A stretch of 34,663 bases of DNA, taken from contig JAQTQU010000004.1 in the NCBI GenBank assembly GCA_028712095.1, positions 1 through 34,663 of the forward strand, in the 5' to 3' direction. The notes under the pieces were generated by a model. That model saw only the letters and a program-made list of their open reading frames with translations, had not been told where the DNA came from and ran no database searches. Below, in pieces: positions 3,082 through 31,600 of the stretch; position 1 is the stretch's first letter, and each line of letters begins with the position of its first letter. The stretch comes from Candidatus Peribacteraceae bacterium. Lineage in GTDB: Bacteria > Patescibacteriota > Gracilibacteria > Peribacterales > Peribacteraceae. Both the position numbers and the translations under genes were made by a program.

Positions 3082-3333
3082 CTACCCTAGCCGTTTGTAT
3101 GTTTCCTCATTCCTCCTCGTCACGCGCCGGATTTCCGCTTTCCCCGATGTCGGATCCACGGTGAAGATGATGCGGTAATCTCCCACGCGCACGCGGAACC
3201 ACCCCTTCATGCCGCGCAGGGCCTTGAGACCGGGCACCTTTCGATAGTCGCGCCGAAGCTGTTCCATGAGGAGGAGCATGGCCTCCCGCTCAGTCGTGGA
3301 GAGGGCCCGGATGATTTTTTCGATCCTATCCAT
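3082..3333 (-). CDS. RelE/ParE-family toxin
   Basis: 83 aa with the RelE-type core GWFRVRVGDYRIIFTVD...EIRRVTRRNEETYKRLG; start overlaps the 3' end of the AbrB-like antitoxin gene. Confidence 0.85.
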   Translation of the reverse strand: MDRIEKIIRALSTTEREAMLLLMEQLRRDYRKVPGLKALRGMKGWFRVRVGDYRIIFTVDPTSGKAEIRRVTRRNEETYKRLG

Positions 3334-3571
3334 GCCGGATCTTCTTGAGGGTCCTGATGATCTGTTCCGGACTCACGCCCTCCCCGTCGTTGTCGCGGTC
3401 CGCGTCGAAGAGAATCTCATCCTCCGTGACGGAATCGAGGCGGAAGGGAATGATAACCAGACGGTCCCCGTGCATCTCCATGAGGTAGTGATCCGTCGGA
3501 AAATTCGCTCTCCACTGTCCGGGGAGCGTGATCTGGCCGCGCGTGGTGCTCTTCACGATCCTGGTCGTCAT
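3326..3571 (-). CDS. AbrB/SpoVT-fold antitoxin
   Basis: MTTRIVKSTTRGQITLPGQWRANFPTDHYLMEMHGDRLVIIPF is AbrB-like; 8-nt overlap with the toxin gene. Start reset from the ORF track 3706 to the ATG at 3571. Confidence 0.75.
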   Translation of the reverse strand: MTTRIVKSTTRGQITLPGQWRANFPTDHYLMEMHGDRLVIIPFRLDSVTEDEILFDADRDNDGEGVSPEQIIRTLKKIRHG

Positions 3572-3708: not shown

Positions 3709-5940
3709 CTATCGGCCTTTTTCCTTTTTGCTCCGACTATTGATCTGTTCGGCATCCCGCAAAATTTCGTCCAGCGGTTGTCCGGTCGGGGATGAGGACG
3801 TCTCTGCCGGTGCCGGAAACAGATCCAAATCCGGCGGCCATACGAATGCGGGTTCATTCACTTCGAAGAAGACGACGCCGATTGAGCGCGCAAGATTTTC
3901 ATCCGTCGCGGCGTCGATGAGGGCGAGAACCGCCCGCGCGCGCTTGTCGCCTTCGCCTCCCGGAACATCGCGCCAGCGCGACCATGACTGCGTCACCGCA
4001 TCGATCGCGTTCGCCACCTTCCCCTTCCGTTCGCCACGGAACGCATCCGCGCCGTTCCAGGCGTCGATGCCCTGCCGTTGCCACGAAAATTGCAGTCCGC
4101 GCTCCGCGATTTTTCCTCTCTCGTCATCGGTCAGCTCGCGGATCTCGCCTTTGATCTTCTCTAAGCGACGCTCTATCGTCTTTTCGAGTTTTTCGGGTTC
4201 CGGAGCGGGCGCTTCCGTAGATGGCACGGAGTCAGCCGATCCCACGGACTTTTTTTCCGCAGACTCCTCTGCCGCCGGTGCGGGGACGATAGGTTTCGCC
4301 TCCGGCTTGGCCGGAGCGGATTGAGGCGCTTTGGGAGTCGCCGGGGCCGCCGACGACGGTGCGCTGAATCTTGCGATCGTCTTCCGCAGTGCATCCTTAT
4401 TCCAAAACTCCCATGCTTTCCCCATCCAACGCTCCGCCAAACGCCCCAAGCCGCCAAGCAATCCAGATGCGACGGGAGGAGTAGCCGCGGGTTTGTCAGC
4501 CGCACTCCCGGAGAGGCTCCCGGACCCGGGCGAAGGTGCAGGCCGCGTTCGGGACGATCCTCGCTGCGCGGGCTGCGCCGAGACCACTTCCTCCCGAGAC
4601 TCTCCGGAAGCCAGCACCATGTCGATGAAGTGACGCAGCGACCCGATGTTGCGCGGGGCGACGCCGTTCACCGCCCGGGGAGAGAATCGACCCGACAAGA
4701 GTCCCCTGATGATCCGATCAGCGTCGCGGTGCTCGCGGCTCGCCCACCGGAATGTCCCCGCATCCATCTGGCCGCGCAGATACTCGCAGGCCTGCCGCGC
4801 TGCGGGGTCCTGACCCGCGATTGCGGCGATCCGGCCGAGGAGCCCGCGCAGTCGCGGACGCTCGTTCGCGCGCTCGCCGGAACTGCGGGGCAGCCGGGGC
4901 GCAGGGCGCTCGCGAGCCGCCGGTGCAGGTTGCGAGGGGACTGGCGCCGCGGGAACTTTGGCGCGGGAGGAGGGTTTCGTACCGAAAATTTTGGGGTATC
5001 CCTCCACCTGCACCCACGCGCCTTCCGGCACGTACGTGACTTCGATGCGCGTGCCGTCCAAGGTGCGTGCGACGTTGACCCCCGCCTGCTCCAGCGCGCG
5101 GCGATGGGTATCTTCCTGCTTTCGTTCCTGCTCGATCGCGTTCAGCCGGCTCCCCGCCGTTCCGACCTGCGTGAAGGGGTTGCTCTCCATCGGCAGGTTG
5201 TTGAGCATGATCGACTGCGGCAGGACGAGGTTCTCCGCGCCTTCATTGCCGGGAACATTCCGGAGCGCCGTGAGGTTGTTCCCCTCCCATCCCGTCGCGG
5301 AGAAGGAGATGATGATGCGCTCGTTCCTGCCGCGCTGCCCCCGTGCATCGGGATGACCGAAGGGGATATCGAAGACATGGGAGGAAGGCATGCGCTCCCT
5401 TTCCCCCTGTGGCGGGACCCACTCCGAAGCCGGCGGTTTCTCCGCCTCCAGTCCCACTTTCGTCTCCCAGTCGGCCAGCTCCGCCTCCATCTGACTGATG
5501 AAGCCGGCACACTTCTCAAGGGGGTCGCGGGCCGCCCCGGGGGTTCTCTCGGCTTCATTCAGGTTCAATTTGTATTGATCGATGATGCGTTCGTAGAGGC
5601 CGCGGAAGTTATTGAGTTCATGGATCTTTGTTGTTTTCTTGTCGAAGAGAGGCAACCGCTCGAGCGCTGGTTTCTTATCGATCTCCTGATCGAGATCCCG
5701 GATGTGCCGTGCGATCTGCCGCTCAATTTTCTCCTTGCGCCGCTTCGCGCTCCTCTCCCGTTTAAACAATTCATAAAGGAGGATACCGGCGGGCTTCTCG
5801 ACGCGCTTCGGGGATTGAGCCTCGGGCGATCCGGGAACCTCGCCCCGTGGGAAACCCTCTCTGTAGGCCGAAGGTTTATTCGGCTCATTCTTGCGCGTGA
5901 GGCGCGACTCGCCGATGGAGGAGTGATGGAGCCGGATCAT
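3709..5940 (-). CDS. Hypothetical 743-aa protein: charged/coiled N-terminus, central folded region, Pro/Ala-rich linker
   Basis: Long ORF translationally coupled to the upstream small gene by an ATGA overlap (5937-5940); domain-like segments separated by low-complexity PAPAAEES-type linkers. Confidence 0.85.
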   Translation of the reverse strand: MIRLHHSSIGESRLTRKNEPNKPSAYREGFPRGEVPGSPEAQSPKRVEKPAGILLYELFKRERSAKRRKEKIERQIARHIRDLDQEIDKKPALERLPLFDKKTTKIHELNNFRGLYERIIDQYKLNLNEAERTPGAARDPLEKCAGFISQMEAELADWETKVGLEAEKPPASEWVPPQGERERMPSSHVFDIPFGHPDARGQRGRNERIIISFSATGWEGNNLTALRNVPGNEGAENLVLPQSIMLNNLPMESNPFTQVGTAGSRLNAIEQERKQEDTHRRALEQAGVNVARTLDGTRIEVTYVPEGAWVQVEGYPKIFGTKPSSRAKVPAAPVPSQPAPAARERPAPRLPRSSGERANERPRLRGLLGRIAAIAGQDPAARQACEYLRGQMDAGTFRWASREHRDADRIIRGLLSGRFSPRAVNGVAPRNIGSLRHFIDMVLASGESREEVVSAQPAQRGSSRTRPAPSPGSGSLSGSAADKPAATPPVASGLLGGLGRLAERWMGKAWEFWNKDALRKTIARFSAPSSAAPATPKAPQSAPAKPEAKPIVPAPAAEESAEKKSVGSADSVPSTEAPAPEPEKLEKTIERRLEKIKGEIRELTDDERGKIAERGLQFSWQRQGIDAWNGADAFRGERKGKVANAIDAVTQSWSRWRDVPGGEGDKRARAVLALIDAATDENLARSIGVVFFEVNEPAFVWPPDLDLFPAPAETSSSPTGQPLDEILRDAEQINSRSKKEKGR

Positions 5941-6263
5941 GGGTTGCGGGGAGGATTGTCCGTATTGAGCTTCTTCTCCACGCGCTCGATATCCCGCTCC
6001 TGCCCGCGCATCTCGCTCTCGGCCCGCCGGACCTTGCGGAATGCCTGCTCCGCCTGCGTGAGATTCTGTTCGGCTGCGACGAGGGCTTTCTCCGCCTCCG
6101 CTTCCTTCTCCCTGATCCGCTCATTGAAGTGCGTGAGCCGATCCGCCAATTCCCCCCGCTCATCATCATTGAGCCGCTCGCCGATGTTGAGCGCACGCGC
6201 GCGGGCGGACTCCGGAAGGGATTCCAGTGTGCGAACGGTCTTCTGGAACGTGTGTGTATCCAC
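5937..6263 (-). CDS. Small coiled-coil protein, paralog of the 9096-9407 product
   Basis: The ORF track starts at TTG 6275, but a GTG at 6263 gives (M)DTHTFQKTVRTLESLPESARARALNIGERLNDDER, which aligns without gaps to MNQKTFMQELAKLIAIPAVQAARARIVGEGLSDADR of 9096-9407. Confidence 0.8.
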   Translation of the reverse strand: MDTHTFQKTVRTLESLPESARARALNIGERLNDDERGELADRLTHFNERIREKEAEAEKALVAAEQNLTQAEQAFRKVRRAESEMRGQERDIERVEKKLNTDNPPRNP

Positions 6264-6274
6264 TGTTAATTGCA

Positions 6275-6283
6275 ATTATAGCA
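6275..6283 (-). promoter_or_regulatory. Extended -10 promoter TGCTATAAT
   Basis: Minus strand TG-C-TATAAT (6283-6275), with the GTG start 12 nt downstream of the -10. Confidence 0.55.
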
Positions 6284-6390
6284 CATTAATAGTATCAATG
6301 CCATATTCCATGCAATAACCGACAACACGGTAAATCGGCATTTCTTACCATCAAAGCATCTCTCAAATCACCCTCTCATCGTGATGCCGG

Positions 6391-6434
6391 ACCCCGAGAC
6401 TCGGGGGGCAAAGGCGGCGGGTTTCCTCCGCCAC
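6391..6434 (-). terminator. Tandem GC-rich hairpins between the two coiled-coil cassettes (possible terminator)
   Basis: Minus strand TGGCGGAGGAAACCCGCCGCC followed by CCCCGAGTCTCGGGG, just after the stop codon of the 882-aa gene. No long U-tract, so intrinsic termination is uncertain. Confidence 0.4.
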
Positions 6435-6439
6435 CATGG

Positions 6440-9088
6440 TTACTTCTTGCTTTCCAGCTTCTTCACGACCTCCTCGATCTCCCGAAGCATCTTGTAGCTC
6501 GGGAATTTTTTGTACTCTGCTCCAGGATCTTTGATGTACAACTCACCGCGCCGCTCGCGCTCCTGTAATGCCGCGAGTCCCTCCCGCAGCGAGGGAAGGG
6601 ATTTCTGACTGCCTCCATGGGCGATCAACCGATGAAGTGCACGCAAAGCATTTATGGCCTCTTCAAATTTTTCCGCCTGGCTCACCACTTCTTCCCGCTG
6701 GGCCACCCGCTTCGCGTCCTCTCCATTCGTCTCTTGCGCTGCAACACGCGCTCGATCGTTCTCCCGCTGCATCGCAAGAAGGTCCGTCTGCCAACGCAGG
6801 AGCTCTGTGATGCGTTGCTCCTGCTCCGGCGTCAGAAGACCGGATTTCTTTGCATCATGGAGCAGTGATCCCTCCTTCCGAACCGCACCGAGAGCGCGCG
6901 CGATATGCTCGGGTGTCGCGCCTGACGCATCCGCTCGAGATCGGAGGCCGTTGGTGGCGGCCTGAAGCGCGGGGAGCTTTGCATTCAGTTCCTTTTTCAA
7001 CAGAGCGTCGCGCAATTCCCGCTCATCCTGCTCCAGGCGGGACTGAGCCCTTTTAAGCTCATCAAAGCGGTTTTTGAGTTCCGGCGGCAACGCAGACGGA
7101 CCGGCGCGGAAGAGGGAACTCCCCTCTGCACGGACCGCGTCGAGCGCCGCTTCGATCTCCCCGACCGTCGCCGTGCTCCGCCGCCGACCTCCGGTTTCAT
7201 AGACTTTCGCCCACGCGCCGTCCGTCGCCGCACGGAGGATCGGCGCTTGCTCTATCGCCTGTCGCCTGAGGCACTCTGCCTTCTTCCCCTTCCACTTGCG
7301 GTCAAGGGCGAGGAGCTCGCCGATCCGTTCCCCCACACCCTCCTCGTCGGCAAAGCCCCGGAGGTACGTTTGCTCGCGATGGATCGCGCCGAGCACCCGA
7401 TCAACACGATCCACCGTGGGCGCGGCATCACGATCGATCATATCATCCAGGATATTCGTCTGCGCCTTACAGAGTTCGCGGACGCGCACCTTGGCGGCCT
7501 GCGTCATCTGCAGTTCCTTTCCGTCTCTCCCCTTCAGTTTCCACCGAACCTCGCGGTCGGGATCAAAGTTGCGGTAGAGCAGACTCCCCTCCTGACGAAT
7601 CTGCGTGAGCGTATCCTCCGCCACTTCTTCGTAGGAGCGCCGTTCATCCTCCACCGTCGGACGCACAAATCTCTTGGCCTCCGCCAGGTGAGTGCGGGCC
7701 TTCTCCAGATCCGCTTCCGCATCCGTCAGAGGTTTGCGTGTGTCCCGGTATGCCTTCTCTTTCTGCTCGCGGATCGTCTTCAGCTTTGCCAGGGCATTCT
7801 GTGTCTCCGTGAGGCTTTCTTTCCGGGCCTGCTCATTCCCCTCACGGACTGTGACGTCTCCGGCGGCCTTCTCTTTGTCGAGTGCCTCCTGCTTTTTGAC
7901 ATTCGCCGCTCCGCGCAGATCTTCCGGCTTCTTCTCCGCCGCAATTTCCGCTCCCAGTGCGGCAATGTCGTCTGTGATTTTCTTCTTCTTCGCCTGAGCA
8001 TCGGCATTATTCTCCGCTGCCATCCGGGCCGCTTTGGCCCGCGCGGCTTCAATTTGCGGTGCCTTCACGGCGGCATCGCCCGCTCCTGCATTGATGCGAG
8101 CTGTCTCCTGAACCAGATCCGCTTTGAGCTTCTTGTCTGTCTCATCCCACTGCAGGTCAACGGCATTCTCCTCCTGCGCCTTCTTGTCTTTCTTCTCGTT
8201 CAGCTGATCCTGCTTGAGCTTGCGTTGACCTTCAACCTCTCCGGCCTTCCGCTCCAGATCCGCAGCTTCCGTCCGCAACTTCTGGGCATCTTCGATCTGT
8301 TTCTTGGCATCCGTGAGCGCCTTCGTCGCCTGCTGGGACAATTCCGCGGCAACAGTGACTTCCAGATTCGCGTCGGCTTCATCCTGAATGGCAGCATCCA
8401 TTTCGCTCTTGAGCTTGCGCAGGTTCTTCCCCGAAAGACCGCGCTGCTGATCCTGCACTTCGCGCTCCGCCTCCGTGATCTCCCGCTGCGCTTTCCTGAC
8501 CTCCGTGTCTTTGTACACCTGCTCACGGAACGTGCGGTAGATTTGCACCCCCTTGTCGGTCCTCTGCGCGCTGTCCGTCGCCAGGCGCTGGAATGATTCC
8601 TCGATTTTGCCTGTCTGCTGCGTGTACCACATCACGAGGTTGTCCAGATTCTCCACAATCTGTTCCTCTTCCGCCGCCGTCTGTCGGATCACCTGCGCCT
8701 GCCGCTCGAAGGTCTCGAACTTGGGCAGCGCGCCGTAGCGGGCAATGCCTCTCTCCACCGCTTGTTTTCTCTCCCGCTCCAACGTGTTCAAAGCGTTCTG
8801 CAAATCCCCGCCTGCATTCTTCAGATAACCCATGACTTCCTCATAGTTGATTCCGCTCTTCTCCGCGCCGCGCGTCTCAAGATCGTGGATGCGCGCATTC
8901 ACGGCCTCGAGGAGCTCACTCGCGAGCTTCCGCGACCGCTCAAAACGCTGGCCGACACGCTCCTGCTCCTCCCGCGTCAGGCGCAGCAACTCATTCGTTT
9001 CGCCCTGATATTTTTTCATACCCCGCCTGTACATCTCTTCGAAACCCCAATTCGGATTGGAAGGCCGATGATCGAATCCATCAGCCAT
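6440..9088 (-). CDS. Hypothetical 882-aa coiled-coil protein with about four degenerate internal repeats
   Basis: Long Lys/Glu/Ala/Gln-rich coiled-coil composition; repeated motif (I/V)xxEGSLLx...RIxELLxxQ in the C-terminal half. Confidence 0.88.
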   Translation of the reverse strand: MADGFDHRPSNPNWGFEEMYRRGMKKYQGETNELLRLTREEQERVGQRFERSRKLASELLEAVNARIHDLETRGAEKSGINYEEVMGYLKNAGGDLQNALNTLERERKQAVERGIARYGALPKFETFERQAQVIRQTAAEEEQIVENLDNLVMWYTQQTGKIEESFQRLATDSAQRTDKGVQIYRTFREQVYKDTEVRKAQREITEAEREVQDQQRGLSGKNLRKLKSEMDAAIQDEADANLEVTVAAELSQQATKALTDAKKQIEDAQKLRTEAADLERKAGEVEGQRKLKQDQLNEKKDKKAQEENAVDLQWDETDKKLKADLVQETARINAGAGDAAVKAPQIEAARAKAARMAAENNADAQAKKKKITDDIAALGAEIAAEKKPEDLRGAANVKKQEALDKEKAAGDVTVREGNEQARKESLTETQNALAKLKTIREQKEKAYRDTRKPLTDAEADLEKARTHLAEAKRFVRPTVEDERRSYEEVAEDTLTQIRQEGSLLYRNFDPDREVRWKLKGRDGKELQMTQAAKVRVRELCKAQTNILDDMIDRDAAPTVDRVDRVLGAIHREQTYLRGFADEEGVGERIGELLALDRKWKGKKAECLRRQAIEQAPILRAATDGAWAKVYETGGRRRSTATVGEIEAALDAVRAEGSSLFRAGPSALPPELKNRFDELKRAQSRLEQDERELRDALLKKELNAKLPALQAATNGLRSRADASGATPEHIARALGAVRKEGSLLHDAKKSGLLTPEQEQRITELLRWQTDLLAMQRENDRARVAAQETNGEDAKRVAQREEVVSQAEKFEEAINALRALHRLIAHGGSQKSLPSLREGLAALQERERRGELYIKDPGAEYKKFPSYKMLREIEEVVKKLESKK

Positions 9089-9095
9089 GAGAGAA

Positions 9096-9407
9096 TCAGG
9101 AAAGATTGACGATCTGCTCCTCTGCGGAGCCTAAGTTCCTGGAACGTTCGGCCTGTTCCGCCTCCTCGCGGACTTCCTTCTTGAGACGCCTGCTCATGTT
9201 CCGGACCGCGCTATCAAACCCGTCGAGCGCCTTGAGCTGCCGGACATGCGCCTGCGAAAGCGCCGCATGCGCCTCGGTGAGCTTTTTCATGAATTGTGCG
9301 CGGTCGGCATCCGAAAGCCCCTCGCCCACGATCCGCGCCCGTGCGGCCTGCACCGCCGGAATGGCGATGAGCTTGGCGAGTTCCTGCATGAAGGTTTTTT
9401 GATTCAT
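9096..9407 (-). CDS. Small coiled-coil protein, paralog of the 5937-6263 product
   Basis: 103-aa ORF ending 7 nt before the 882-aa gene, preceded by an extended -10 box; ungapped N-terminal alignment with the other small protein. Confidence 0.85.
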   Translation of the reverse strand: MNQKTFMQELAKLIAIPAVQAARARIVGEGLSDADRAQFMKKLTEAHAALSQAHVRQLKALDGFDSAVRNMSRRLKKEVREEAEQAERSRNLGSAEEQIVNLS

Positions 9408-9432
9408 GTGGGTTTAGGTGTTCTTTCCTACT

Positions 9433-9441
9433 ATTATAACA
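9433..9441 (-). promoter_or_regulatory. Extended -10 promoter TGTTATAAT
   Basis: Minus strand TG-T-TATAAT about 25 nt upstream of the ATG at 9407, with a purine-rich AGGAAAG between. Confidence 0.55.
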
Positions 9442-9529
9442 GAAACTGCCTTACAGCTCAATAACCCATTTGAGCCCTTCCCTGAAGCCATTTCATCCAA
9501 TCCTAACCCTATCCCGAACCCTTCCCGCC

Positions 9530-9899: not shown

Positions 9900-10283
9900 T
9901 TACGCGATATCCGAACCTGTGCTCGTGCTGCTCTGCTCCATGCCGAATTTCTTGAAGAGCAGATCGAACGAGCCATCGGACTGATCGAGCGCCTCGTGAA
10001 GCATTTTGACCTCATGGTCACTCAACTTGAGCGAAGAAGAGACGTTCTGCCGGGCATCGGATTCGATGGGACGCGCGCCCAATTTCTCCACACCCTGAAG
10101 GGAGGCATGCAGGACGATGTAGGCGTTGCACGTATCGCACTTGAGCTGCAGCAGCATGGCATTCTCGCTCACCACGCGCACCGCGCCGAAATCGACCGGC
10201 ACCTGCTTGCCACACTGCGGGCAACGCATCTGATTGCGGATCCGGAGGAGGATTTGCTGCAGCGTGTGCGGGTCCAATTCCAT
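9900..10283 (-). CDS. Small zinc-ribbon-like protein
   Basis: MELDPHTLQQILLRIRNQMRCPQCGKQVPVDFGAVRV...LKCDTCNAYIVLH: CPQC/CDTC pair. Start trimmed to the ATG at 10283. Confidence 0.75.
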   Translation of the reverse strand: MELDPHTLQQILLRIRNQMRCPQCGKQVPVDFGAVRVVSENAMLLQLKCDTCNAYIVLHASLQGVEKLGARPIESDARQNVSSSLKLSDHEVKMLHEALDQSDGSFDLLFKKFGMEQSSTSTGSDIA

Positions 10284-10559: not shown

Positions 10560-11225
10560 GTGCCACGACCACCACGGATTTCGCGCAAGAGTGAACCTGA
10601 CATGCCGCAGGAATCTTTGGTGCGTGTGCGCAGCGTTCCGCACAGGAAAAAACGCGCCGCGCCCCCTCCTGCGACTCTATCGGCGGCTTTGCCTGTGACA
10701 GCGGTGCAGCCGGCAGAACGGCAGGGTTTCACGCTGCACGCCGCGGCGGCGGTGGCTGCCATTGTCGCCGTCGTTGTGCTCTCACAGGGTGCGCTCCGGG
10801 ACGGTGCATCCTCACTCACGGCCGCACTCATTCCCGGCGAGCGGGCCGAGATCGGTCTGGAGCACACGAAACCCGTGACCCTCTCGCTCTCGTTCACCAC
10901 GAACGGTACGAATGGGGTGATGGACATCCGTCACGATGCACTCGAAACGGTGTATCTGAGCCTCCCCTCCACGTGGATCAGGCGCGAGGTGGGCGGCGTT
11001 CCGCTCACGGCTGTCACGGCGGATCCGCCGGTGTTCGGCTTCACACGGTGGAGCATGCCGGCCGGCGCTCTGGTTTCGTTTGACGTGACGCCCCCCTCCA
11101 CGATTCTGCTGCACAATCCATCGGGAATCCCTGCTGACATCAGACTCACGCGCGTAGATCTTGAACAAAATGCCGTGGAGCGCGATATTCTGCTCGTACA
11201 GGAAGGGAGCATCCTTCTGTGGTAA
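10560..11225 (+). CDS. Hypothetical single-pass membrane protein
   Basis: 221-aa ORF from GTG; basic N-terminus, TM-like segment FTLHAAAAVAAIVAVVVLSQGAL, then a beta-rich exterior region; TACACT box 8 nt upstream. Confidence 0.7.
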   Translation: MPRPPRISRKSEPDMPQESLVRVRSVPHRKKRAAPPPATLSAALPVTAVQPAERQGFTLHAAAAVAAIVAVVVLSQGALRDGASSLTAALIPGERAEIGLEHTKPVTLSLSFTTNGTNGVMDIRHDALETVYLSLPSTWIRREVGGVPLTAVTADPPVFGFTRWSMPAGALVSFDVTPPSTILLHNPSGIPADIRLTRVDLEQNAVERDILLVQEGSILLW

Positions 11226-11998
11226 GGTGGCTTGCCGTGCGCATCCTTCCGCTCCACACACCGATTCTCAACGATGGCGACGATCTCGTCGGCATTTTCG
11301 CGCAGAGTGCTTCGTTCGAGGAGGGTGACGTTCTCGTGATTTCATCGAAGGCCATTGCCACGGTGGAGGGCGCACGGATCGACCTCACAAAAATTTCAGT
11401 GACACCAGAGGCCGAGGAATGGGCGAAGCGCAGTGGCCGCTCTGCGGCTTTCCGGCAGGCCGTTCTCAATGAAGCAAAACGTCTGAATGGAAAAGTGGTG
11501 GGCGGAAGCGAACTCGCCATGCTGACGGAACTCAAGCCCGAAGGACTGGAGGGTACGTTGCTCGTTCCCAATGCCGGACTGGATCAGTCGAACGTGCCCG
11601 AAGGCTTCTGCATCGGCTGGCCGGTTGATCCGCTCTCCTCCGCCAGTGCACTACGGGATGTTCTCTCTCAGGGAACGGGACAGCACCTCGCCGTGATCGT
11701 GAGCGACAGTTGCTGCCGGCCGCGGAGATGGGGCGTGACCGCGTTCGCCTTGGTCTGCGCAGGCATGGATCCCCTCTCACCACAGATCGGAAGAAAAGAC
11801 CTCTTCGGCCGTCCGCTCACGATGACCGTAGAAGCAGTTGCGGACCAGCTCGCCACGACCGCCAATGCGGTGATGGGCAACGCCGACCAGTCCATCCCCG
11901 CGGCGATCATCCGCGAACACGGTCTGCCCATGACGGATTTTGCCGGATGGGTGCGGGGGATCAATCCGGAGGAGGATTTATTTCAGGGAGCGTTCTGA
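11219..11998 (+). CDS. Coenzyme F420-0:L-glutamate ligase-like (CofE family) protein
   Basis: VLVISSKAIATVEG, NAGLDQSNVPEG, VIVSDSCCRPRRWG, LFGRPLTMTVEAVADQLATTANAVMGNADQSIPAAIIR resemble CofE motifs; overlaps the upstream gene by 7 nt. Confidence 0.8.
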   Translation: MVRWLAVRILPLHTPILNDGDDLVGIFAQSASFEEGDVLVISSKAIATVEGARIDLTKISVTPEAEEWAKRSGRSAAFRQAVLNEAKRLNGKVVGGSELAMLTELKPEGLEGTLLVPNAGLDQSNVPEGFCIGWPVDPLSSASALRDVLSQGTGQHLAVIVSDSCCRPRRWGVTAFALVCAGMDPLSPQIGRKDLFGRPLTMTVEAVADQLATTANAVMGNADQSIPAAIIREHGLPMTDFAGWVRGINPEEDLFQGAF

Positions 11999-15703: not shown

Positions 15704-16942
15704 ATGTCTACAAACCCCGAGACATCTGAGGCACAGCAGGAGAATCCCACTCTTGCGGAACTCAATAGTGCCGCTTCTCCAGCCGGAACCGAACCTCTCC
15801 AACCAGAAACAGCGGATGGTGATAGTGGTATTCTTGTGGAAACTACAAATGCAAGTGTTACGCAGGAAGCAACTACGCAGAAAGGAATACTGCGTCGAAT
15901 TTTGGGCATCGGGAGGAATGTTGGGAAAAGTATCCGAAGAGCTGTCTTACCGAACAGAGAGGAACGGGCCTCAATGTCAGAGAGTGAGAAACTGACCCGG
16001 AGAAGGTTCCTTCAAATCGGGGGAGGAACGGCAGCCGCGGCAACGCTAGGTGGTGTCGGATATTCGCTCTGGCCAAAAGGGGGAAGAGGATTTAGTGCGC
16101 GTGAGACGGAGTCGAAGGTTGAGAACATAGACGAGGGACGCCCCGACTTTATACCCCTCGATGAATGGAGAAATACACTGACGCCAGCCCAACGGGACGC
16201 CATCCGCAAGCACAGTCAGGAAATGGCCAAGAAGGGGTCGATGTCGAGTACAGGAAGAGCCAAGGTACCCGAGGCCCACAAGCCGGAGCAGGGCACTGTG
16301 CGCGAAGGATTGGAGAATCTGAATAGTTTCTGGGGTGTTGCTCCGGTACCTGCTGCCGAAATTGCCGGGTGGATTGCTAATGCCATAGTGAGTGAACTCG
16401 CCATCCACCAAAAGCACCTCAAACTGACAAGGGAAATTACTGATCCCGGCTCTCCTGATATGTCCAAGAACAAGCGATACACCGCAATCAACCTTCCTGC
16501 CCATTCTGTTAAACAACTCAGGGAACTCCGGGATGAAATCAACGCCACAAAAGAGGCAGTGGAAGCAATGGGTGAAAGAGTTGACAATGGAGAACGAGCA
16601 ATTCGATTGGTAATACAGACTATTCTGGTTCTTCTTGGTACCGGCGCAAAACTCTCTGGCATCCTGACCTCACAAGGTCTGAAAACCGCAGTGGGAATCG
16701 GCGCGGCTTTCGGCATCAACAGATTAAGACCTGAGAACATCAGTCAGGCAGTGGCGCAACGAGTGATCAAGGATCTCGATAGACATCTCACACGAGTGAA
16801 AGATGCTCTCGACGATGCAATAAAAGCCGCTGCGACTGCACCTGCAGCCGCACCCGTTCCTTCTCCAGCACCTATTGCCCCCCAGGCCCCCCCCTCTCCT
16901 CTGCCCCCAGCATCCCCTTCTTCTCCCGCCTCCAATCCTTGA
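15704..16942 (+). CDS. Hypothetical 412-aa protein with an internal twin-arginine-like motif
   Basis: SESEKLTRRRFLQIGGGTAAAATLGGVGYSLWPKGG beginning near residue 92; Pro/Ala/Ser-rich C-terminus. Confidence 0.85.
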   Translation: MSTNPETSEAQQENPTLAELNSAASPAGTEPLQPETADGDSGILVETTNASVTQEATTQKGILRRILGIGRNVGKSIRRAVLPNREERASMSESEKLTRRRFLQIGGGTAAAATLGGVGYSLWPKGGRGFSARETESKVENIDEGRPDFIPLDEWRNTLTPAQRDAIRKHSQEMAKKGSMSSTGRAKVPEAHKPEQGTVREGLENLNSFWGVAPVPAAEIAGWIANAIVSELAIHQKHLKLTREITDPGSPDMSKNKRYTAINLPAHSVKQLRELRDEINATKEAVEAMGERVDNGERAIRLVIQTILVLLGTGAKLSGILTSQGLKTAVGIGAAFGINRLRPENISQAVAQRVIKDLDRHLTRVKDALDDAIKAAATAPAAAPVPSPAPIAPQAPPSPLPPASPSSPASNP

Positions 16943-17904: not shown

Positions 17905-20900
17905 TTACGGTAACTTCTGATCTCTCTCGGCGGCTGCGACAGAGCTCCAGACCTCCAAGAATTGCTTGAACGAAACGAGACGCTCGCGCTCTTCAAGATA
18001 TTGCTTCATCAGACGTGCTTCGTGCACAGAGAGATGCAGGGGGTGCTGCATTTCACCCTCTGCTCCTCCGTGGCTTGTGAGCATCGAGCGCAGGAAAGCT
18101 TCATTCAATGCGACATTCTCAAGGTACCGCTCGTAGGCGGCGCGGGCCGCAGGATCTTTGTTCTGCGTAACATACTCCTGATATGCAGGGTCCTGGGAGA
18201 GACGCCGCTGAACCCAGGAGGGAATGGCCGAGGAGAATGCTCGATACTCTGCATCGCCCATGAGCCAGTTCATTGGAATATAGAAAAGCTTCGAATTCGC
18301 AATGGTTACTGATTTGAGGCTATCAGACCGACGATTGGCACTATTGCCCACATTGAGAATCGTGGCATCAACCGTAGCCACGGTAAGCAGCGTAGTGAAA
18401 TCAAGAGCAACGGGGTCGACTCCCCTCCTCACGAGGTCGGCATACTCGCGCTGACGCTGTTCGAGTAAGTTCTGTGCCCCCCGGTAAGCATCCTGTGCAG
18501 CCCGGGCACCGGCTTCGGCAGTAGGTAGACCTTGGAGTTGCCGATCGATAGATTCGAGTCGGTCTTTGATTTGCTGAAGCTGTATGGCAAGCGAGTCCCT
18601 GCGCTTCTGTTCATCTGTGGTCGGAGTGGCGAGTACAACCAGTCTTTTGTACTCCTCCTGATAATCTAACCGTTTCTTTTCAAGTTGTTCACTTTCCTTT
18701 TTGAGTACATTCAAATCAGCCACATCTTTGGCCAAACGATCCATGTCTTGCTTGGTGCGATCGCGGGCCGTCGTTGCAGCCTCGATTTCACTCTTCTTTG
18801 ACTGCTCTGCCTGCTCATACTGACCGATTGCATCCTTGAGCTTATCACTCTTCGCCAATGCCTGAAATTGATTTGCCTGCAGAATCTCCATGACGTATCG
18901 TTTTTGAGAGGGTTTCAGATCCTCCCACTTCGTCGCATCCCCCCATAGCGTCTTCGCGATCTTGGCCTGCAACGGAGCAATTGTCTCCCGAACCTCTACT
19001 TCACTGATCGGACGTGGAGGGTCCGTAGGCACCCCTTTTGTGAAGGTTAGACGATCGGTGCGCTTGATGCCCGTGTGTTCGAAGGCACTCACCGTTGCGT
19101 TAGGGGCGAGTATGTCACGAATGGGATAATTGCCCCCATCGAAGAAGCTGACCATCGCTTGTTCCTCTTCCTCGTATTGCTTCTTACCCATTTCCGGATC
19201 CAATTCCTTGAGTGGGAAACCGAACACGCGGGAAACGCTCTCCAGGAACGACCCAACATATTCGTGCAGAAGCGGAATCGTCATCATGTAGTCATGGATC
19301 CCCTTAAGCTCCGTCAACGTGCGCCCTGTAATGTTGACCGTACCGTCGAAAATGAATTCCACGACACCCGGACCCTTAGTGATAACCGTCATGCCAATAG
19401 CCTTGCCCGTCTCCACAACAAACTTCCATGACGCTGCAAAATCCTCCACGACTTCCGGCTTCAGCTTCGCATACGTCAGCCGGGCCCAATCGTGAATCGC
19501 ACCTCCCGTATCCCACGCCCAGTCTTTCGCAGCAGCCGCAATCTCCGGCACCTTGTGAATCCCCTGCTTCATCATCACCCACGCCTGCACGCCGTACTTC
19601 TTGACGAGCGCTGCGGCTTCATCATAGGTGTAACCGAACAGATCCGCAGCGGCCTCAAGGTAGCTCCTGTTTTCCAGCATCTCCTTCGTCGGCATCTGGC
19701 ACTCGGACATGATCACCTCGAACATCGTGGCGGGCTTGAGGGAGGTCGAACGGTTCATGACATAGCGGCGCTGAATCAGATCGGCACCCTGCTCGGCATT
19801 GGTATCGGTGTTGCCGCCGGAAAGCCCGTTGATGCGCGCCACGTCGGCACACAGGGATTCAAAGGCAAGGTATGCCACTTCGCATGCCTTCTCTCTGGAA
19901 CCCGTGACACCAAGATTGTCTTCGATATCAGAAACGCGCAGCGACCGGGGCACGCCGAGCGAGAATCTCTTGCTGCCCGTAGCGCCTCCAGACTTCACGG
20001 CATTGCGCCATGCGAGCAGCTCCTGCACCGCAATGGGATTCTTCTCATTCATCAGGACACGGATGGCCGCCTGCCCCGCCGGCTGCATCAGCACTGCATA
20101 GCGCTTGTCGAGCGCGGCTCCGCGCCGGCGGAACGCCTCTAACGGAGAGGTACGATCCTCCTTATTCTTCCAGCGCAGGTTTTCACCCAAAAGGTCGCGG
20201 CCCGTACGCTGCTTCACAATCGCATTCACACCCAGCAGAATCGGCAGACCCAGCAGGACAAATTTGCCCTTCTTGTTCTTCCATATCTCTTTGATCATCC
20301 AGTACGCGGCGAAGGCGATGGCGATCACTTCGGCCTTGCCCACCATGTCCGTATTCCACAGGTCCTTCATGGATTCGATGCCGGTGCGCAGCCACCGGTC
20401 CACGGGGTTCGTGAATTCGTCTTCGTCCTCGATCTGCTCTTTGGCCTTGAGACTGCCGCGCATTTCAAAGAGCAGGCGCTGCTGCAGAGCGTTCACCGCC
20501 AGGCGGGCATCGATCACCGAAACCTTCTCGGTGCGGCCCTGATACTCGTACGTCTGCTCTTCGCCCGTGACGAAGGCCTCGAGAAACGCCGCCTTCGCGG
20601 GAGAGTCCTCCAGTGCGATTTCGAGCGAGGCACGCACTTTTTCCGGCGGATCCATGGTCCAGCGGCCGATACCGGCGGCAAGGTTGAGCGCGGGATTCGC
20701 CGGGTCTTTGGCCTGTCGCAGCAGATCCAGGGCACGGGGATTCAAGTTGAGTCCGCGCTGCTTTAAAGGAGAGAGGATGTCGCGCCCCGCCTGCGTTTCG
20801 ACGATGGCACGCGCATCGATCGTGCGCAGGAACGCCTGCCGCTCGGCAGGTTTCATCTTGGCCATCTGCTCATCCACGAACTTGTCCTGATCTTCGGGCG

Positions 20901-23226
20901 TGCGAAGTTTTCCTGCTGCCTGCAAGAGCTGTCTGGCCTCTTTCAAACCAGCCTCGGGATCTTTCTTGGTTCCCTTGTGCATGGCGGTCCACAGCGTCAG
21001 CTGACGCAGCCTTCTGGAACAGGTACTCCAGCCCATCGTATTCAGCTGCCCAATCACGTGCTGATTAGCCATGAGGAGTGCCTCCGCCTGCACATTGTGC
21101 TCCGACGGAGAAACTGCTGGATCACCGCGGAGTGCCTTCAGCTGCGCCTCCCTGCGGCTATGCAACCCGGTTTCGGTCGTCTCGAGGAACCGCTGCGCAC
21201 CCGAAGATGTCTTGAGCAGCTTCTCGAGCGAGGCCTTGCCGTCCTTCAGGGCTGCCTGCTGATTCAGTAGTTTGAGGAGGTCGGCATCGTGTTCCGGATC
21301 CCAGAAATTCTTGCGGATCCCCGCGATGTAGTCCCACCAGATGCCGGCCCCGGCCTTGGTGAGTTTCCACAGTTCCGATGCATGCATCGACACTGATTCC
21401 TTCCACGTGATATCGGCAACATGTGACCTCCCCATTGCATCACAAATAGTTTTTGCCTTTGCAGAGACGGTCATGTTTTTCAGTTCCAACTCCAGATCAT
21501 CTTTGGCACTGACTTTAATCTTCTTCGCGGGATCTGCGGGATCTGGTTTCTCAACCTCTGCAACAATCAATGTGCCATCGCCTCCATCGACAATAAGACC
21601 TTTGGTCTTCAGCCCGTTGAATTGATCCTTGGCTTTAACACGTGCTGCAGCCTCCTTGTCCTCCAGAGAGAAGAATGTGAAATACTCCAGCAGCAGTGCT
21701 TCGTTCACGAGCAACCGTTTGCCGGTGGCATCAACAGCCTTGACGGAATTTTCGATGATCGTCTTCGCTGCCTCTGCCCCGACCTTGACCCCGTCACCCA
21801 ACTTGGGCATCTTCGCAATTTCAACCAAGCGCCCCACTGCAATGTCGTACTGTGCGTCCGACAGTGGCTTCACTACATCATCGGTCAACCGCGCGCGCAG
21901 CGCCAGCGCCGAGAGCGAAACGCCTGTGGGATTATCGATCTTCACACCCTCGCTCCTGAGGTACTCCTCCGCCTTGCCGGTATTCCACAGGCTCAAAAGA
22001 TCGCGCGAGAAATCCTCGATGGAAACCGTTTGGGATGGGACTGTCTTCTTCAATTCTGCCTCCGATTTCGCACGGTCCGCCTCTACCGCATCCCTTCCGC
22101 CTTTGAGGATGGCGAGGATGAGTTTCTTCGCTTCGTTGGCGTCTTTGATCTTGTACTTCTTCAGAATTCGATCCACCTGCATAGCCTCCGTCAACTCCAC
22201 ACTGGTCTTGAGCCCGAGAGCTTCCTCGATTTTCTTTTTCTGATCATCCGTCAGCTTGGCCTTCTTCAGAATCTCCAGCCGTTGAATGAGTGCATCAAGA
22301 CGGAACTTTCCATTGCGCTCAAGCGACAGATGAATGAGCGCCTCCTGATCGGTACCGCCGAGGCGGTCCAAGTAGCGCAGGCGCTCCTGGAACGCATCCG
22401 CGATGAGCTTTTGCTGATTCATCTGAAGCTCCGACAACTTGGTATCGATGGCCCGCATGGCCGCCTCCACTTTCTTGCGCTCCTCCGGATTCAGAAGCTC
22501 GATGCCGCCGGTCTCGCGGACGATCTTGAGCAATGCCGAGCGCCGAGCGGTCGCGTCGGTGGCCGTGGTGAACGGCGTAAGGCTCAATGCGGGAATGCCA
22601 ATGGCCTTGAATTTGTCCGTCCACTTCCTGGCATCCTTCAGATCATCATCGGTGGCCCAGAGAATATCCTTCATCAGATCGACCAATTGATCGAACCGCT
22701 TCTTGAACGCATCGACGTTCGTCTTCTTCTCGAGGATGCCGCGGAGCTCCGTATCGAATCCCGGAAAGTCCCCTTCCCCTCCGGCATCGCTGTAGGCTTT
22801 CTGCAGTTTCCGGAGTTCGTCGATGGTCGCCTGCAGGATCTCTGAACACTTTTTCGCCAGATCCGTGGATTTGTCCTTGGCAGCGTTGATGGCCTGCCCC
22901 TCGCCCGTAAAAGCATCATGGCTCTTCTGCAGGAACGACAGGGCAATGGCATTGAGCCACTTCTTGGAATCATTGCCCGCAAGCAATTCCACCTGCGACG
23001 CGATCATGTTGAGCGTTTCCTCATCCGCGAGCATCTCTTTGATCCTTTGGTCATTCAGCGTCGTTGCAGCGTCACGGAGCGCCTTCTTGGCTTCAGCGAA
23101 TCCGGGGCCGCGCTTTTCCGTATCCAGCCGCATCGCATCGCCGCTGCGCTCCGGCGTCTTGTCGTAAATCAGCCGCGCTTCGCGCAGGCCTTCAGACCCA
23201 AAATCCGGAAAGAGTTTTTGTGTCAT
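17905..23226 (-). CDS. Giant orphan protein (about 1773 aa) with a central hydrophobic hairpin and C-terminal coiled coil
   Basis: Single uninterrupted ORF (ORF track start TTG 23235; ATG at 23226 preferred). Hydrophobic segment AEVIAIAFAAYWMIKEIWKNKKGKFVLLGLPILLGVNAIV mid-protein; coiled coil with KKESEQLEKKRLDYQEEYKRL near the C-terminus. Confidence 0.9.
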   Translation of the reverse strand: MTQKLFPDFGSEGLREARLIYDKTPERSGDAMRLDTEKRGPGFAEAKKALRDAATTLNDQRIKEMLADEETLNMIASQVELLAGNDSKKWLNAIALSFLQKSHDAFTGEGQAINAAKDKSTDLAKKCSEILQATIDELRKLQKAYSDAGGEGDFPGFDTELRGILEKKTNVDAFKKRFDQLVDLMKDILWATDDDLKDARKWTDKFKAIGIPALSLTPFTTATDATARRSALLKIVRETGGIELLNPEERKKVEAAMRAIDTKLSELQMNQQKLIADAFQERLRYLDRLGGTDQEALIHLSLERNGKFRLDALIQRLEILKKAKLTDDQKKKIEEALGLKTSVELTEAMQVDRILKKYKIKDANEAKKLILAILKGGRDAVEADRAKSEAELKKTVPSQTVSIEDFSRDLLSLWNTGKAEEYLRSEGVKIDNPTGVSLSALALRARLTDDVVKPLSDAQYDIAVGRLVEIAKMPKLGDGVKVGAEAAKTIIENSVKAVDATGKRLLVNEALLLEYFTFFSLEDKEAAARVKAKDQFNGLKTKGLIVDGGDGTLIVAEVEKPDPADPAKKIKVSAKDDLELELKNMTVSAKAKTICDAMGRSHVADITWKESVSMHASELWKLTKAGAGIWWDYIAGIRKNFWDPEHDADLLKLLNQQAALKDGKASLEKLLKTSSGAQRFLETTETGLHSRREAQLKALRGDPAVSPSEHNVQAEALLMANQHVIGQLNTMGWSTCSRRLRQLTLWTAMHKGTKKDPEAGLKEARQLLQAAGKLRTPEDQDKFVDEQMAKMKPAERQAFLRTIDARAIVETQAGRDILSPLKQRGLNLNPRALDLLRQAKDPANPALNLAAGIGRWTMDPPEKVRASLEIALEDSPAKAAFLEAFVTGEEQTYEYQGRTEKVSVIDARLAVNALQQRLLFEMRGSLKAKEQIEDEDEFTNPVDRWLRTGIESMKDLWNTDMVGKAEVIAIAFAAYWMIKEIWKNKKGKFVLLGLPILLGVNAIVKQRTGRDLLGENLRWKNKEDRTSPLEAFRRRGAALDKRYAVLMQPAGQAAIRVLMNEKNPIAVQELLAWRNAVKSGGATGSKRFSLGVPRSLRVSDIEDNLGVTGSREKACEVAYLAFESLCADVARINGLSGGNTDTNAEQGADLIQRRYVMNRSTSLKPATMFEVIMSECQMPTKEMLENRSYLEAAADLFGYTYDEAAALVKKYGVQAWVMMKQGIHKVPEIAAAAKDWAWDTGGAIHDWARLTYAKLKPEVVEDFAASWKFVVETGKAIGMTVITKGPGVVEFIFDGTVNITGRTLTELKGIHDYMMTIPLLHEYVGSFLESVSRVFGFPLKELDPEMGKKQYEEEEQAMVSFFDGGNYPIRDILAPNATVSAFEHTGIKRTDRLTFTKGVPTDPPRPISEVEVRETIAPLQAKIAKTLWGDATKWEDLKPSQKRYVMEILQANQFQALAKSDKLKDAIGQYEQAEQSKKSEIEAATTARDRTKQDMDRLAKDVADLNVLKKESEQLEKKRLDYQEEYKRLVVLATPTTDEQKRRDSLAIQLQQIKDRLESIDRQLQGLPTAEAGARAAQDAYRGAQNLLEQRQREYADLVRRGVDPVALDFTTLLTVATVDATILNVGNSANRRSDSLKSVTIANSKLFYIPMNWLMGDAEYRAFSSAIPSWVQRRLSQDPAYQEYVTQNKDPAARAAYERYLENVALNEAFLRSMLTSHGGAEGEMQHPLHLSVHEARLMKQYLEERERLVSFKQFLEVWSSVAAAERDQKLP

Positions 23227-23307: not shown

Positions 23308-23607
23308 CTAGGGCTGATAGGCCTCCCTGCGGTGGCGGACGGCGAGGACTTCGATGACGTGCGTACGGCCCTTCACATCCACGAGGACGCGATAATCACC
23401 CACACGGAACCGAAATAAACCCTGACGGTTGCCCTGCAACGGTTTGGCAAAGTGCAGCGGATCGACATGGGCGGCATACCACTCCATCTTGTCGAGAATG
23501 CGCGTGGCAATCATGCGCGGTAACCGCGCGAGGTCCTGTTGCGCTGAGGACGATATTTTGATGCTGGGAGTCCGAGCATCTGCCGGACTTCCTCGGTCGT
23601 GTACCAC
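23308..23607 (-). CDS. RelE-family toxin (start uncertain)
   Basis: IKISSSAQQDLARLPRMIATRILDKMEWYAAHVDPLHFAKPLQGNRQGLFRFRVGDYRVLVDVKGRTHVIEVLAVRHRREAYQP is typical RelE. No ATG near the family N-terminus; in-frame GTG at 23607. Confidence 0.82.
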   Translation of the reverse strand: MVHDRGSPADARTPSIKISSSAQQDLARLPRMIATRILDKMEWYAAHVDPLHFAKPLQGNRQGLFRFRVGDYRVLVDVKGRTHVIEVLAVRHRREAYQP

Positions 23608-23819
23608 TCGCCTCTCGCGATCTGCCTCCGCGCCTCCGCGATATCCGCTTCCAACTCCTCCATCGTGCGTTTCCTCCGCGGTTTTACGGGGACTAAATGA
23701 GCCACCGGCTCGCCGAAGCGCATGATGACGAAGTGGACATTGTCCCTGCGTGCCTCGTTGAGAATCTTCTGCATATTCGCCCGGAGGGAACGGACGCCAA
23801 TCGTGCGGGTCTTTGCCAT
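23511..23819 (-). CDS. Phd/RelB-type antitoxin
   Basis: MAKTRTIGVRSLRANMQKILNEARRDNVHFVIMRFGEPVAHLVPV pattern; paired with the downstream RelE-like gene. Confidence 0.82.
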   Translation of the reverse strand: MAKTRTIGVRSLRANMQKILNEARRDNVHFVIMRFGEPVAHLVPVKPRRKRTMEELEADIAEARRQIARGEWYTTEEVRQMLGLPASKYRPQRNRTSRGYRA

Positions 23820-28662: not shown

Positions 28663-31600
28663 ATGGTTTCAAAGCGCTTCGTTCTCCTTGGAATTTTTGC
28701 TCTCAGTGTCGGTGCCGCTTTCGTCGGAACGCTCTGGAATCTGCAGGGAGAAACCCTGCAGGGGCAACTCGCCCCGGGAATGTCGCAGGTGATCGATGAC
28801 GGCGATGCCGGATTTAAGACGAATGGCAAGGGATGGCAGAGCTTTCAACATGCCTTGGGATATGGAGGGGACATTGCATCTCCATCCTCTGCCAGTGATG
28901 CCACACTCGCCGCCACGTGGACGTTTTCGAATGTCACGGCCGGTCAGTATAAATTTTTCGTGACATTCAAAGCCTACAGCCTGCTCACGAACCAGGCGCC
29001 CTACATCATCAGGGACGGGGCCTCCATCCTCAGCAAGCGGACGGTGAATCAGAAGGCCGATCCCACGGGTAACACCTATGACGGCAAGGCATGGCTGCTG
29101 CTCGGAACGTACACGGTGAAAGGCCCCACGGTCTCGATCACCCTCTCCCGCCCGACCTCGCTGACGGCCAACGGGATGATCGCGGACGCCGCGCGCATCG
29201 AGCGGGTAAGCGCGGGGGCAACTGCGGGAACGTCGTCTTTCTCCTCATACAGCTCCAGCAAACCTTCGAACCTTTCCTCGTCATCGTCGTCCGTCGCCTG
29301 CATCGCAGAGGGGCAGATCGGCGCGTTCAATGACCAGTGCTGCACAGGGTTGCAGACAATGCCGACCACCATCCTCGGCTCAGGCGACCTGTGCGTGGCG
29401 AACAACAACGGTTCGTTCTACTGCACCGCTCTCTGCGGCAACGGTCAGTGCTCTGTCATCGAGAACAAATGCAACTGTCCGGCGGATTGTCCGCTGCTTG
29501 CCTCCCGCTCTTCGTCCAGCGTTGCCTCATCGGCCTCCCCCGCCGCAGCCAGAACACCCAACAACGTCTATTCGCTGTTCGGGCAGAGCAGCAGCGCGTT
29601 TCTCACCTGTCCGGCCGCCGGCTGTAACGAAGGCTCCTTCTGTACTTGCGATGACGCAAGACGCAATTGCAGCTGCTGCAGGCTGGGCACGACGCTGCAG
29701 TGCGATGAGAACCGCACAAACTGCGCTTGCCGGTATATCGAGTGCCTCCCAGGATATCATGTGGGCCCGAACAACTCCTGCATTGCCGATGCGGTCTGCG
29801 GCGACGGCTACATCGACCTGAGCGTGGAACCGCGGGAGTTCTGTGAGACGCAGCCGCAACAGAGCTGTCCGCCGGACCGGTCCTGTATCGGCTGCACGCG
29901 GTGCTCCGTGTGCGGAGACGGGGTCGTCGAAGGAAGCGAGCAGTGCGAGGCGGACTTCACCTGCGGAAACGGACGGGCATGCGATGCCTGCGCCTGCGTT
30001 TCTTCTGATACCCGACTCACGGCGAACACGACCATCAGCCTTGATAGCACGAAGGCGACAGTCACGACCCCCGCCAATATCACGCAGACCAGCTGGCCCG
30101 TGACCGTCACCGCCGGCGAGAGCTACGACGTTTACGTCTGGACGGAAAATTGCCCGACGAGTTACTGGCGCGTCTACGACGGTTCCCGGAATGTCCGCCC
30201 CCTCCTCGTTGAATACGGCTCCGTCCTCTGCAGGAATACTACCGGTTGGATCCGCCTCGTCCGGGTCCAGCCGACCGGTTCTTCCCTCACGATCCAACAC
30301 GAACTCCCGTCCACTGCCGCAGGGGAAGGCGCGGAGGCCACATCCATCCGCATCATCCAGGTTTTCGATGACGAAGGGACCGCTCCGCTCGGCATTACGC
30401 TCATCGACGACGGAGACGAGGGTTTCTCCTTGAGCGGCGGCAAGGATTACGCTTCGGTAGACGCCGACGACTATTCCCTCCCCTGGGTTTCGGCCGACTA
30501 TGGACTCCTGCCGCTCTACGGGGATGACTTCGTGACCCCCGCGTACCGCACCTACTGGAGATTCACGGTCACTCCGGGTTCCTCGTACCAGATCTTCGCT
30601 TCTTACCGGCCCTACATCAGCTCCGGGTACAACAGAACGTACTCCATCACGGCCGGCCAGAGCACAAATCTGGGTTCCGTAACCGTCGACGGAAGCAGCA
30701 TCCCCGACGGCGCGTGGTTCCGCGGCGCGAAATGGCAAAGCCTGGGAACGTTCTCGGTGCTCTCTGACCGGCTCACCGTCGCCCTCACGCAAGGATTCTA
30801 CGACACCGACGCCGTGCGCATCGTCCGCGTCGGGAACGCAAGTTCTTCATCTTCTTCCTCCAGTTCTGCTCCGCACAGCTCCAGCAAGTCTTCGAGCAGT
30901 CAATCCTCGCCCTCCTGCATCCCCGAAGGAGGCATCATCTCCGAAACGAACATGCGACCCTGCTGCGTCGGCCTCCAGTCGCGCGCCAATATCGTCCCGA
31001 ATCCGCAAACCGGACAGTGCCCGAGTGCCTCACTCACGAGCATTTGCACCTACTGCGGGGACGGACGGTGCGGCATCGGGGAGAACGAGTGCAATTGCAC
31101 TTCGGATTGTCCGCGTTCGAGTTCCTCTGCCTCATCCGTACCCTCGTCGACTGCATCGAACTCCAGCGCGTCCGCAAGCTCCTCCGGCGGAGTCTGCACG
31201 ACGTCCTCCTGGCAAACCTGTGCGGCCGACTACTTCTGTCTCACCTCCTGTCTGGACGGCCAATGCCAGACCGGCAACCACCTCGACTGCCCGACGGGAA
31301 TGACTGCCGTGTACGTGGGCGGCTGCGGGAACCAGACCTGCTACGGCCCGTGCGCGCGCTGCGTGCCCGCATCCTCATCCAGCTCCTCTGCCGCCGCCTG
31401 CATCGCGGAAAGCCAGATGGGCTTCTCGACCAGGGGGCATTCCTGCTGCGCGGGCCTCCGCTCCATCCCCACCTTTACGGTGCCGGAGGACGGCTCGTGC
31501 ATACCAAAAACCGACGGCTCCTTCTATTGCACGGCGTTCTGCGGCAACGGGCAGTGCGCGGGAATAGAGGATGTGTGCAACTGCCCCGCGGACTGCGCCA

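Follow-up and report, generated by a model that had tools for sequence, protein, structure and literature searches.

A two-gene cassette in two tandem copies beside rpoC of a Peribacteraceae genome: a small helical protein and a large, hypervariable partner

Two adjacent gene pairs in a genome of Candidatus Peribacteraceae, each consisting of a short gene followed at once by a very long one, raise the question of whether they are copies of one unit and what such a unit might do. For most large proteins of the uncultured Peribacteria, no function can be assigned. The host genome comprises 1.25 Mb in 67 contigs, and the window, i.e., the whole stretch of 34,663 nucleotides that was analysed, corresponds to positions 1-34663 of one contig. 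Its start falls inside rpoC (minus strand, 1-2776), and both units are placed between rpoC and zinc-ribbon/lipoprotein-like genes; a ParE-like toxin gene and a small partner gene separate unit B from rpoC. The zinc-ribbon protein (9900-10283) is a conserved neighbour, whose relatives belong almost all to Candidatus Peribacter, Peribacteraceae and Peregrinibacteria metagenome genomes of the Candidate Phyla Radiation (CPR). According to simple ORF calls, unit A is composed of small protein A (103 aa; 9096-9407, minus strand) and large protein A (882 aa; 6440-9088, minus strand), which is rich in coiled coils and has no membrane segment. Unit B is composed of small protein B (108 aa, GTG start; 5937-6263, minus strand) and large protein B (743 aa; 3709-5940, minus strand). 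The gap between the small and the large gene is 7 nt in unit A, and the two genes of unit B overlap in ATGA; genes, strands and spacings are as given in the original prediction, which had regarded the locus as a duplicated cassette. Both small proteins belong to a family named here family 1. Other genes of the window include ParE-type toxin genes with partners at 3082-3571 and 23308-23819, the partner of the second being Phd/YefM-like, a member of the F420-0:gamma-glutamyl ligase family (11219-11998; Pfam E = 2e-53) that adjoins the locus conservedly across the order, a 412-aa protein (15704-16942) with a twin-arginine-like stretch unusually distant from its start (residues 96-116), and a large Ser-linker protein with a Golvesin_C domain and a DUF4215 match (28663-33804), which is probably exported.

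Small proteins A and B are homologous. Their first 36 residues share the 13 ungapped identities counted originally, compared to a mean of 2.6 and a maximum of 8 in shuffles, and the full Smith-Waterman score of 98 (z = 11) is reached by none of 2000 shuffles (mean 33.5, maximum 67). A search of one genome connects small B with small A at E = 1.7e-4, and the family-1 profile, of which both are rows, recovers them at about 1e-27. Generic coiled-coil composition, named in advance as the finding that would speak against kinship, was not seen, the similarity being far above that of shuffled sequences. Within the genus, one unit is present in G001, G002 and G003 and two in G000 and G004. In G004 they occupy two contig ends, an arrangement that would fit the same tandem order but does not prove it. 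In the phylogenetic tree, whose bootstrap had not settled, unit B of G000 clusters with that of G004 (96/99) and unit A of G000 with G001/G002 (84/86). Since the unit B copies group apart from the unit A copies, the duplication is old; the duplicated cassette thus stands as an old paralogy but not as a recent duplication, both units being found in only two of the five genomes of the genus.

Each unit had been credited with its own extended -10 promoter, and these are indeed the two best-scoring sites of the region in a promoter scan. The promoter of unit A (9433-9461, minus strand) consists of TTGAGC, a 17-nt spacer and the extended -10 element TGTTATAAT, and is kept in 5/5 genomes of the genus. 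That of unit B (6275-6304, minus strand) consists of ATGGCA, an 18-nt spacer and TGCTATAAT, and is kept ahead of the copy in G004, the sole other genome of the genus with unit B. Because its -10 element is located just 11 nt ahead of the GTG, the mRNA of unit B is nearly leaderless. The hairpins predicted between the units are present as two GC hairpins 3' of large A (6330-6442, minus strand; fold z = -2.7), but they lack a T tract, and terminator calling over the region did not call them as terminators.

The distribution of family 1 was determined with a first query alignment of seven sequences from the genus and later with a profile of 36 rows. The seven-sequence query detected family 1 in 34 of 358 genomes of the class, 30 of which belong to the order, and the 36-row profile in 41 of the 74 genomes of the order, the weakest of the 41 being marginal; these genome counts are not phylogenetically independent, and the stretches used in the censuses amounted to about a third of each genome. 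A partner ORF adjoins the stop codon of every one of the 36 aligned family-1 genes; small proteins scattered without large partners were looked for and did not appear. The partner starts from a few tens of nucleotides before to 102 nt after the stop of the small gene, with start codons picked by hand in a way that favours nearby ATGs, and is 111-1770 aa long, some partners being cut by contig ends. Many family-1 units are located directly upstream of rpoC, and others adjoin metK, rpsG-fusA or ribosomal-protein genes. One profile match, a 215-aa metalloprotease-like protein (L083), was excluded as false, weak matches in other classes of the phylum were left uncounted as they lie mostly inside long unrelated ORFs, and a plasmid search gave no match. 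Outside the order, the small-protein profile alone found genes in another family of the class (L247), with a 757-aa partner tagged SENRMV at its N-terminus, and in two genomes of a third family (L248 and L250), with untagged large partners; family 1 is therefore probably not strictly confined to Peribacteria. In all three genomes, the small gene and the large ORF are situated just downstream of murB. Two genomes of the order found later by the same profile alone (L252 and L253) have tagged partners.

The tag in question is a motif, E-x-R-[LMF]-hydrophobic, which occurs within the first 32 residues of 47 of the 62 non-redundant partners, usually in the form M-x(3-20)-[S/G]-E-x-R-L-[L/I/V]-x-F. 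Shuffled N-termini contained it in a mean of 0.7 and a maximum of 4 partners (2000 shuffles), and it was present in 0.5% of 32-aa windows taken from the protein bodies. In proteome samples, the motif was matched by 5/316 genes of G001, which belongs to the same genus (about three of them convincing; 7/257 in a looser count), by 1/285 genes of G174 outside its cassette loci, and by 1/268 genes of G007, from another family of the class and read with TGA = Gly. Start selection favoured ATGs ahead of the motif, a bias that is bounded by the body-window and proteome controls. The Arg of the motif is written with all six codons, and synonymous codons vary freely, therefore selection acts on the protein; a reading of the motif as regulatory RNA was rejected for the same reason. 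In large B, the motif is GESRLT (residues 10-15; 5896-5913, minus strand), and the protein has a disordered N-terminus, helices at residues 51-161, a domain at about 200-330 and a Pro/Ala-rich middle. Unit B thereby has all three features of the cassette, i.e., a small gene of family 1 or 2, an adjoining partner ORF and the ExRL motif. Unit A has the small gene and the adjoining partner ORF; the canonical motif is absent from large A and from the partners in G001/G002, although the small protein is present.

The motif also occurs on proteins encoded without an adjoining small gene. In the window, a 1773-aa protein with hydrophobic segments (17905-23226) bears the motif MTQKLFPDFGSEGLREARLI, with EARLI at residues 16-20 (23167-23181, minus strand); it has no match in Pfam, and its relatives are found in 12/74 genomes, several of which retain the motif. 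G001 encodes a 182-aa protein near ftsZ/ftsA/truB-like genes (L145:14480-15028) and a 320-aa protein near carA (L139:16254-17216), both bearing the motif and lacking an adjoining small gene. Motif and small protein are thus not strictly coupled, as the small protein occurs with untagged partners (large A, G001/G002), and the 1773-aa protein and the 182-aa protein of L145 bear the tag with no small gene.

A second small family, with the signature YDxIMxxIEPDLTxxxLPxLxxKYxGE, also sits ahead of motif-bearing large ORFs, so that the motif is found on partners of both small families. Family 2 is present in 68 of the 74 genomes of the order, with two marginal matches among the other 284 genomes of the class and none in an even sample of the phylum outside the order. 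The host genome carries its family-2 gene outside the window (C52:9582-9872), and some family-2 cassettes adjoin ftsZ/ftsA-like genes. In the comparison of the two families by hhalign, only a weak match was obtained (probability 32%). Their C-terminal tails are alike, reading hydrophobic-E-x-x-L-S, and are found in 21/37 and 33/50 sequences compared to 3.2 and 5.4 in shuffles. The tail of small A is SAEEQIVNLS (9099-9128, minus strand), with A-E-x-x-L/I as the tail of the family, and that of small B is IERVEKKL (5967-5990, minus strand). In addition, a domain of about 110 residues in large B (residues 209-315; 4996-5316, minus strand) recurs in one family-2 partner with 41% identity, and the two cassette types therefore form one system. 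Family 1 is likewise missing from the six genomes that lack family 2 (G157, G159, G160, G188, G190 and G196), a joint absence with a chance of about 0.006 in a naive hypergeometric calculation that ignores kinship. In G157, G159 and G160, the locus was read from carA to rpoC and contains neither a cassette nor the 1773-aa protein.

The AlphaFold model of small B (mean pLDDT 95.8) has helices at residues 3-12, 18-28 and 33-102, from which a three-helix head continuing into a helix of 70 residues is predicted. Foldseek searches of the PDB with this model yielded only three-helix-bundle analogues of the protein-A type, the best at E 0.44 and none at or below 0.001. The model of large B (residues 1-340) has a mean pLDDT of 55, so that its domain is unreliable, and its motif region is unstructured with a pLDDT below 36. 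None of the 62 partners contains a membrane segment or hydrophobic signal, defined by a simple hydropathy test (not SignalP) as a 19-mer with a mean hydropathy above 1.6, and their Cys content is 0.25% as opposed to 1.19% in controls, both of which indicate cytosolic proteins. The large bodies are hypervariable. Searches of Pfam, NCBIfam, PHROGs, PADLOC and the PDB gave no significant relative and no family that would assign a function; one of the 62 partners ends in a DnaJ domain, a Pfam scan of the 62 showed weak DUF4116 repeats, weak matches to the MukB-like JetC model (E = 7.5e-5) were obtained for two partners, and single sequences match Pfam coiled coils at E near 1e-3. The original prediction of a pair of no known family has thus held up in these databases, the pair being real, conserved and taxon-restricted, but an envelope complex is not supported, given the 0/62 partners with a hydrophobic signal or membrane segment.

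The window accordingly contains a two-gene cassette twice in tandem, and this cassette is widespread in Peribacteria. The first gene encodes an all-helical protein of about 100 aa with a conserved C-terminal tail, and the second a large, hypervariable, Cys-poor, cytosolic protein, usually with an N-terminal [S/G]ExRLL. Our best guess from the sequences, to which we assign a probability of roughly 0.4, is a co-translated adaptor-scaffold pair whose tag would dock to a common receptor; the adaptor-scaffold reading, though inferred, is the most economical one. Gene order, the near-leaderless promoter and the overlap of stop and start codon suggest that a complex is produced in a coupled manner; the small and the large protein would be co-translated, and the long helix of the former may pair with helices of the latter. 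The motif common to unrelated bodies and the tail common to both small families point to a shared binding site elsewhere, so that the flexible N-terminal motif of the large protein and/or the C-terminal tail of the small one could dock on a common receptor. Such a third factor would be favoured over direct binding of the motif to the small protein by the occurrence of small proteins without the motif and of tagged proteins without a small gene. The differing large bodies would in this way become parts of one structure or machine or be brought to it; the small protein would serve as the adaptor, and the large one would be a scaffold or cargo that can be exchanged. A broader version of this idea is more doubtful: Peribacteria may possess a dedicated, hitherto undescribed sorting system in which an N-terminal [S/G]ExRLL code and interchangeable small helical adaptors direct large proteins to a common machine or structure. 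Such a system would go back to the ancestor of several families of the class, and the smallest genomes would have lost it altogether. A rare N-terminal motif on otherwise unrelated large proteins provides a handle on a hidden protein class, and the two interchangeable small families provide an interaction hypothesis that is concrete and can be tested. Should the motif prove to be a targeting signal, protein sorting of a new kind would be present in the CPR. This system is not mentioned in the literature searched, subscription journals excepted, or in the examined passages of the two Peribacter genome papers (PMC4736985; PMC9040852).

Several other functions were considered. A structural system in the cytoplasm or linked to the membrane, which would resemble a cytoskeleton or be connected with cell-wall growth, comes close to what was first suggested for the locus and is an unlikely, though the least unlikely, alternative. 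The long coiled coils, the family-1-like gene with its large ORF downstream of murB in three genomes that belong to other families of the class, the family-2 cassettes beside ftsZ/ftsA-like genes and the hydrophobic segments of the motif-bearing 1773-aa protein point in this direction. However, the neighbours vary widely (rpoC, metK, fusA, mfd, ribosomal genes), so that murB and ftsZ may be coincidental, the cassette partners lack a membrane segment, and the system is missing from several near-complete genomes. Only slightly less plausible is a chaperone-cargo pair with non-Sec delivery, in which the motif would mark the large protein for export or delivery, with the small protein as its dedicated chaperone, and the large protein would be an effector acting on a host or neighbour cell. 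This would account for the small helical gene directly upstream of the large one, for a short signal, unstructured and rich in Ser and Phe, at the N-terminus of unrelated bodies, and for the extreme variability and lineage restriction. Against this, a secretion machine was neither found nor linked, no toxin or enzyme domain occurs in the 62 partners except for the one DnaJ domain and the weak DUF4116 repeats, and the cassettes adjoin housekeeping genes and have strong promoters. For the Peribacter genome, the examined passages of PMC4736985 name type II secretion and type IV pili alone.

It is improbable that the motif is a degron-like signal for degradation or chaperone recognition and that the small protein protects the large one or hands it over; the motif does sit at a flexible N-terminus, and is rare in the proteome, and one partner ends in a DnaJ domain, but the motif is retained over very divergent bodies without other common features. 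A toxin-antitoxin or defence pair is very improbable, since the near-universal presence in the order at stable housekeeping sites and the lack of a toxin-antitoxin or nuclease domain (Pfam, 62 partners) outweigh the two-gene, variable and multicopy character and the toxin-antitoxin genes nearby, and the weak JetC matches in two partners (E = 7.5e-5) resemble coiled-coil similarity. Chance or compositional similarity without any functional unit can be dismissed: coiled-coil-rich sequences do inflate scores, as in the Pfam coiled-coil matches, but for family 1 it is refuted by the ungapped N-terminal domain with a score that shuffles never equal, the distribution over 41/74 genomes, the partner genes throughout and the conserved promoters.

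The cassettes match no known kind in any test made here, and they resemble several known systems in part. Like the WXG100/LXG modules of type VII secretion, they encode a small helical protein directly ahead of a large variable one; however, the family-1 alignment has no WxG, small B is predicted to form a three-helix head and one long helix instead of a helical hairpin, and Pfam detected no LXG domain in the 62 cassette partners. Type III chaperone-effector pairs likewise combine a small helical gene upstream with a short disordered N-terminal signal on variable bodies, whereas the small protein of the cassettes matches no chaperone family (Pfam and NCBIfam above cut-off; PDB fold at E <= 0.001) and its partners have no recognised effector domains. 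To our knowledge, no type III-type apparatus has been described for these organisms. SMC/MukBEF-like complexes share the long coiled coils and the small partner, together with the weak JetC matches in two partners, and differ in their SMC/ABC ATPase head, which Pfam did not find in the 62 cassette partners. Finally, unlike the cargo peptides of encapsulins and microcompartments, the motif of the cassettes is N-terminal, reads [S/G]ExRLL and was found with no identified shell protein, and what both have in common is a short linear motif carried by otherwise unrelated proteins.
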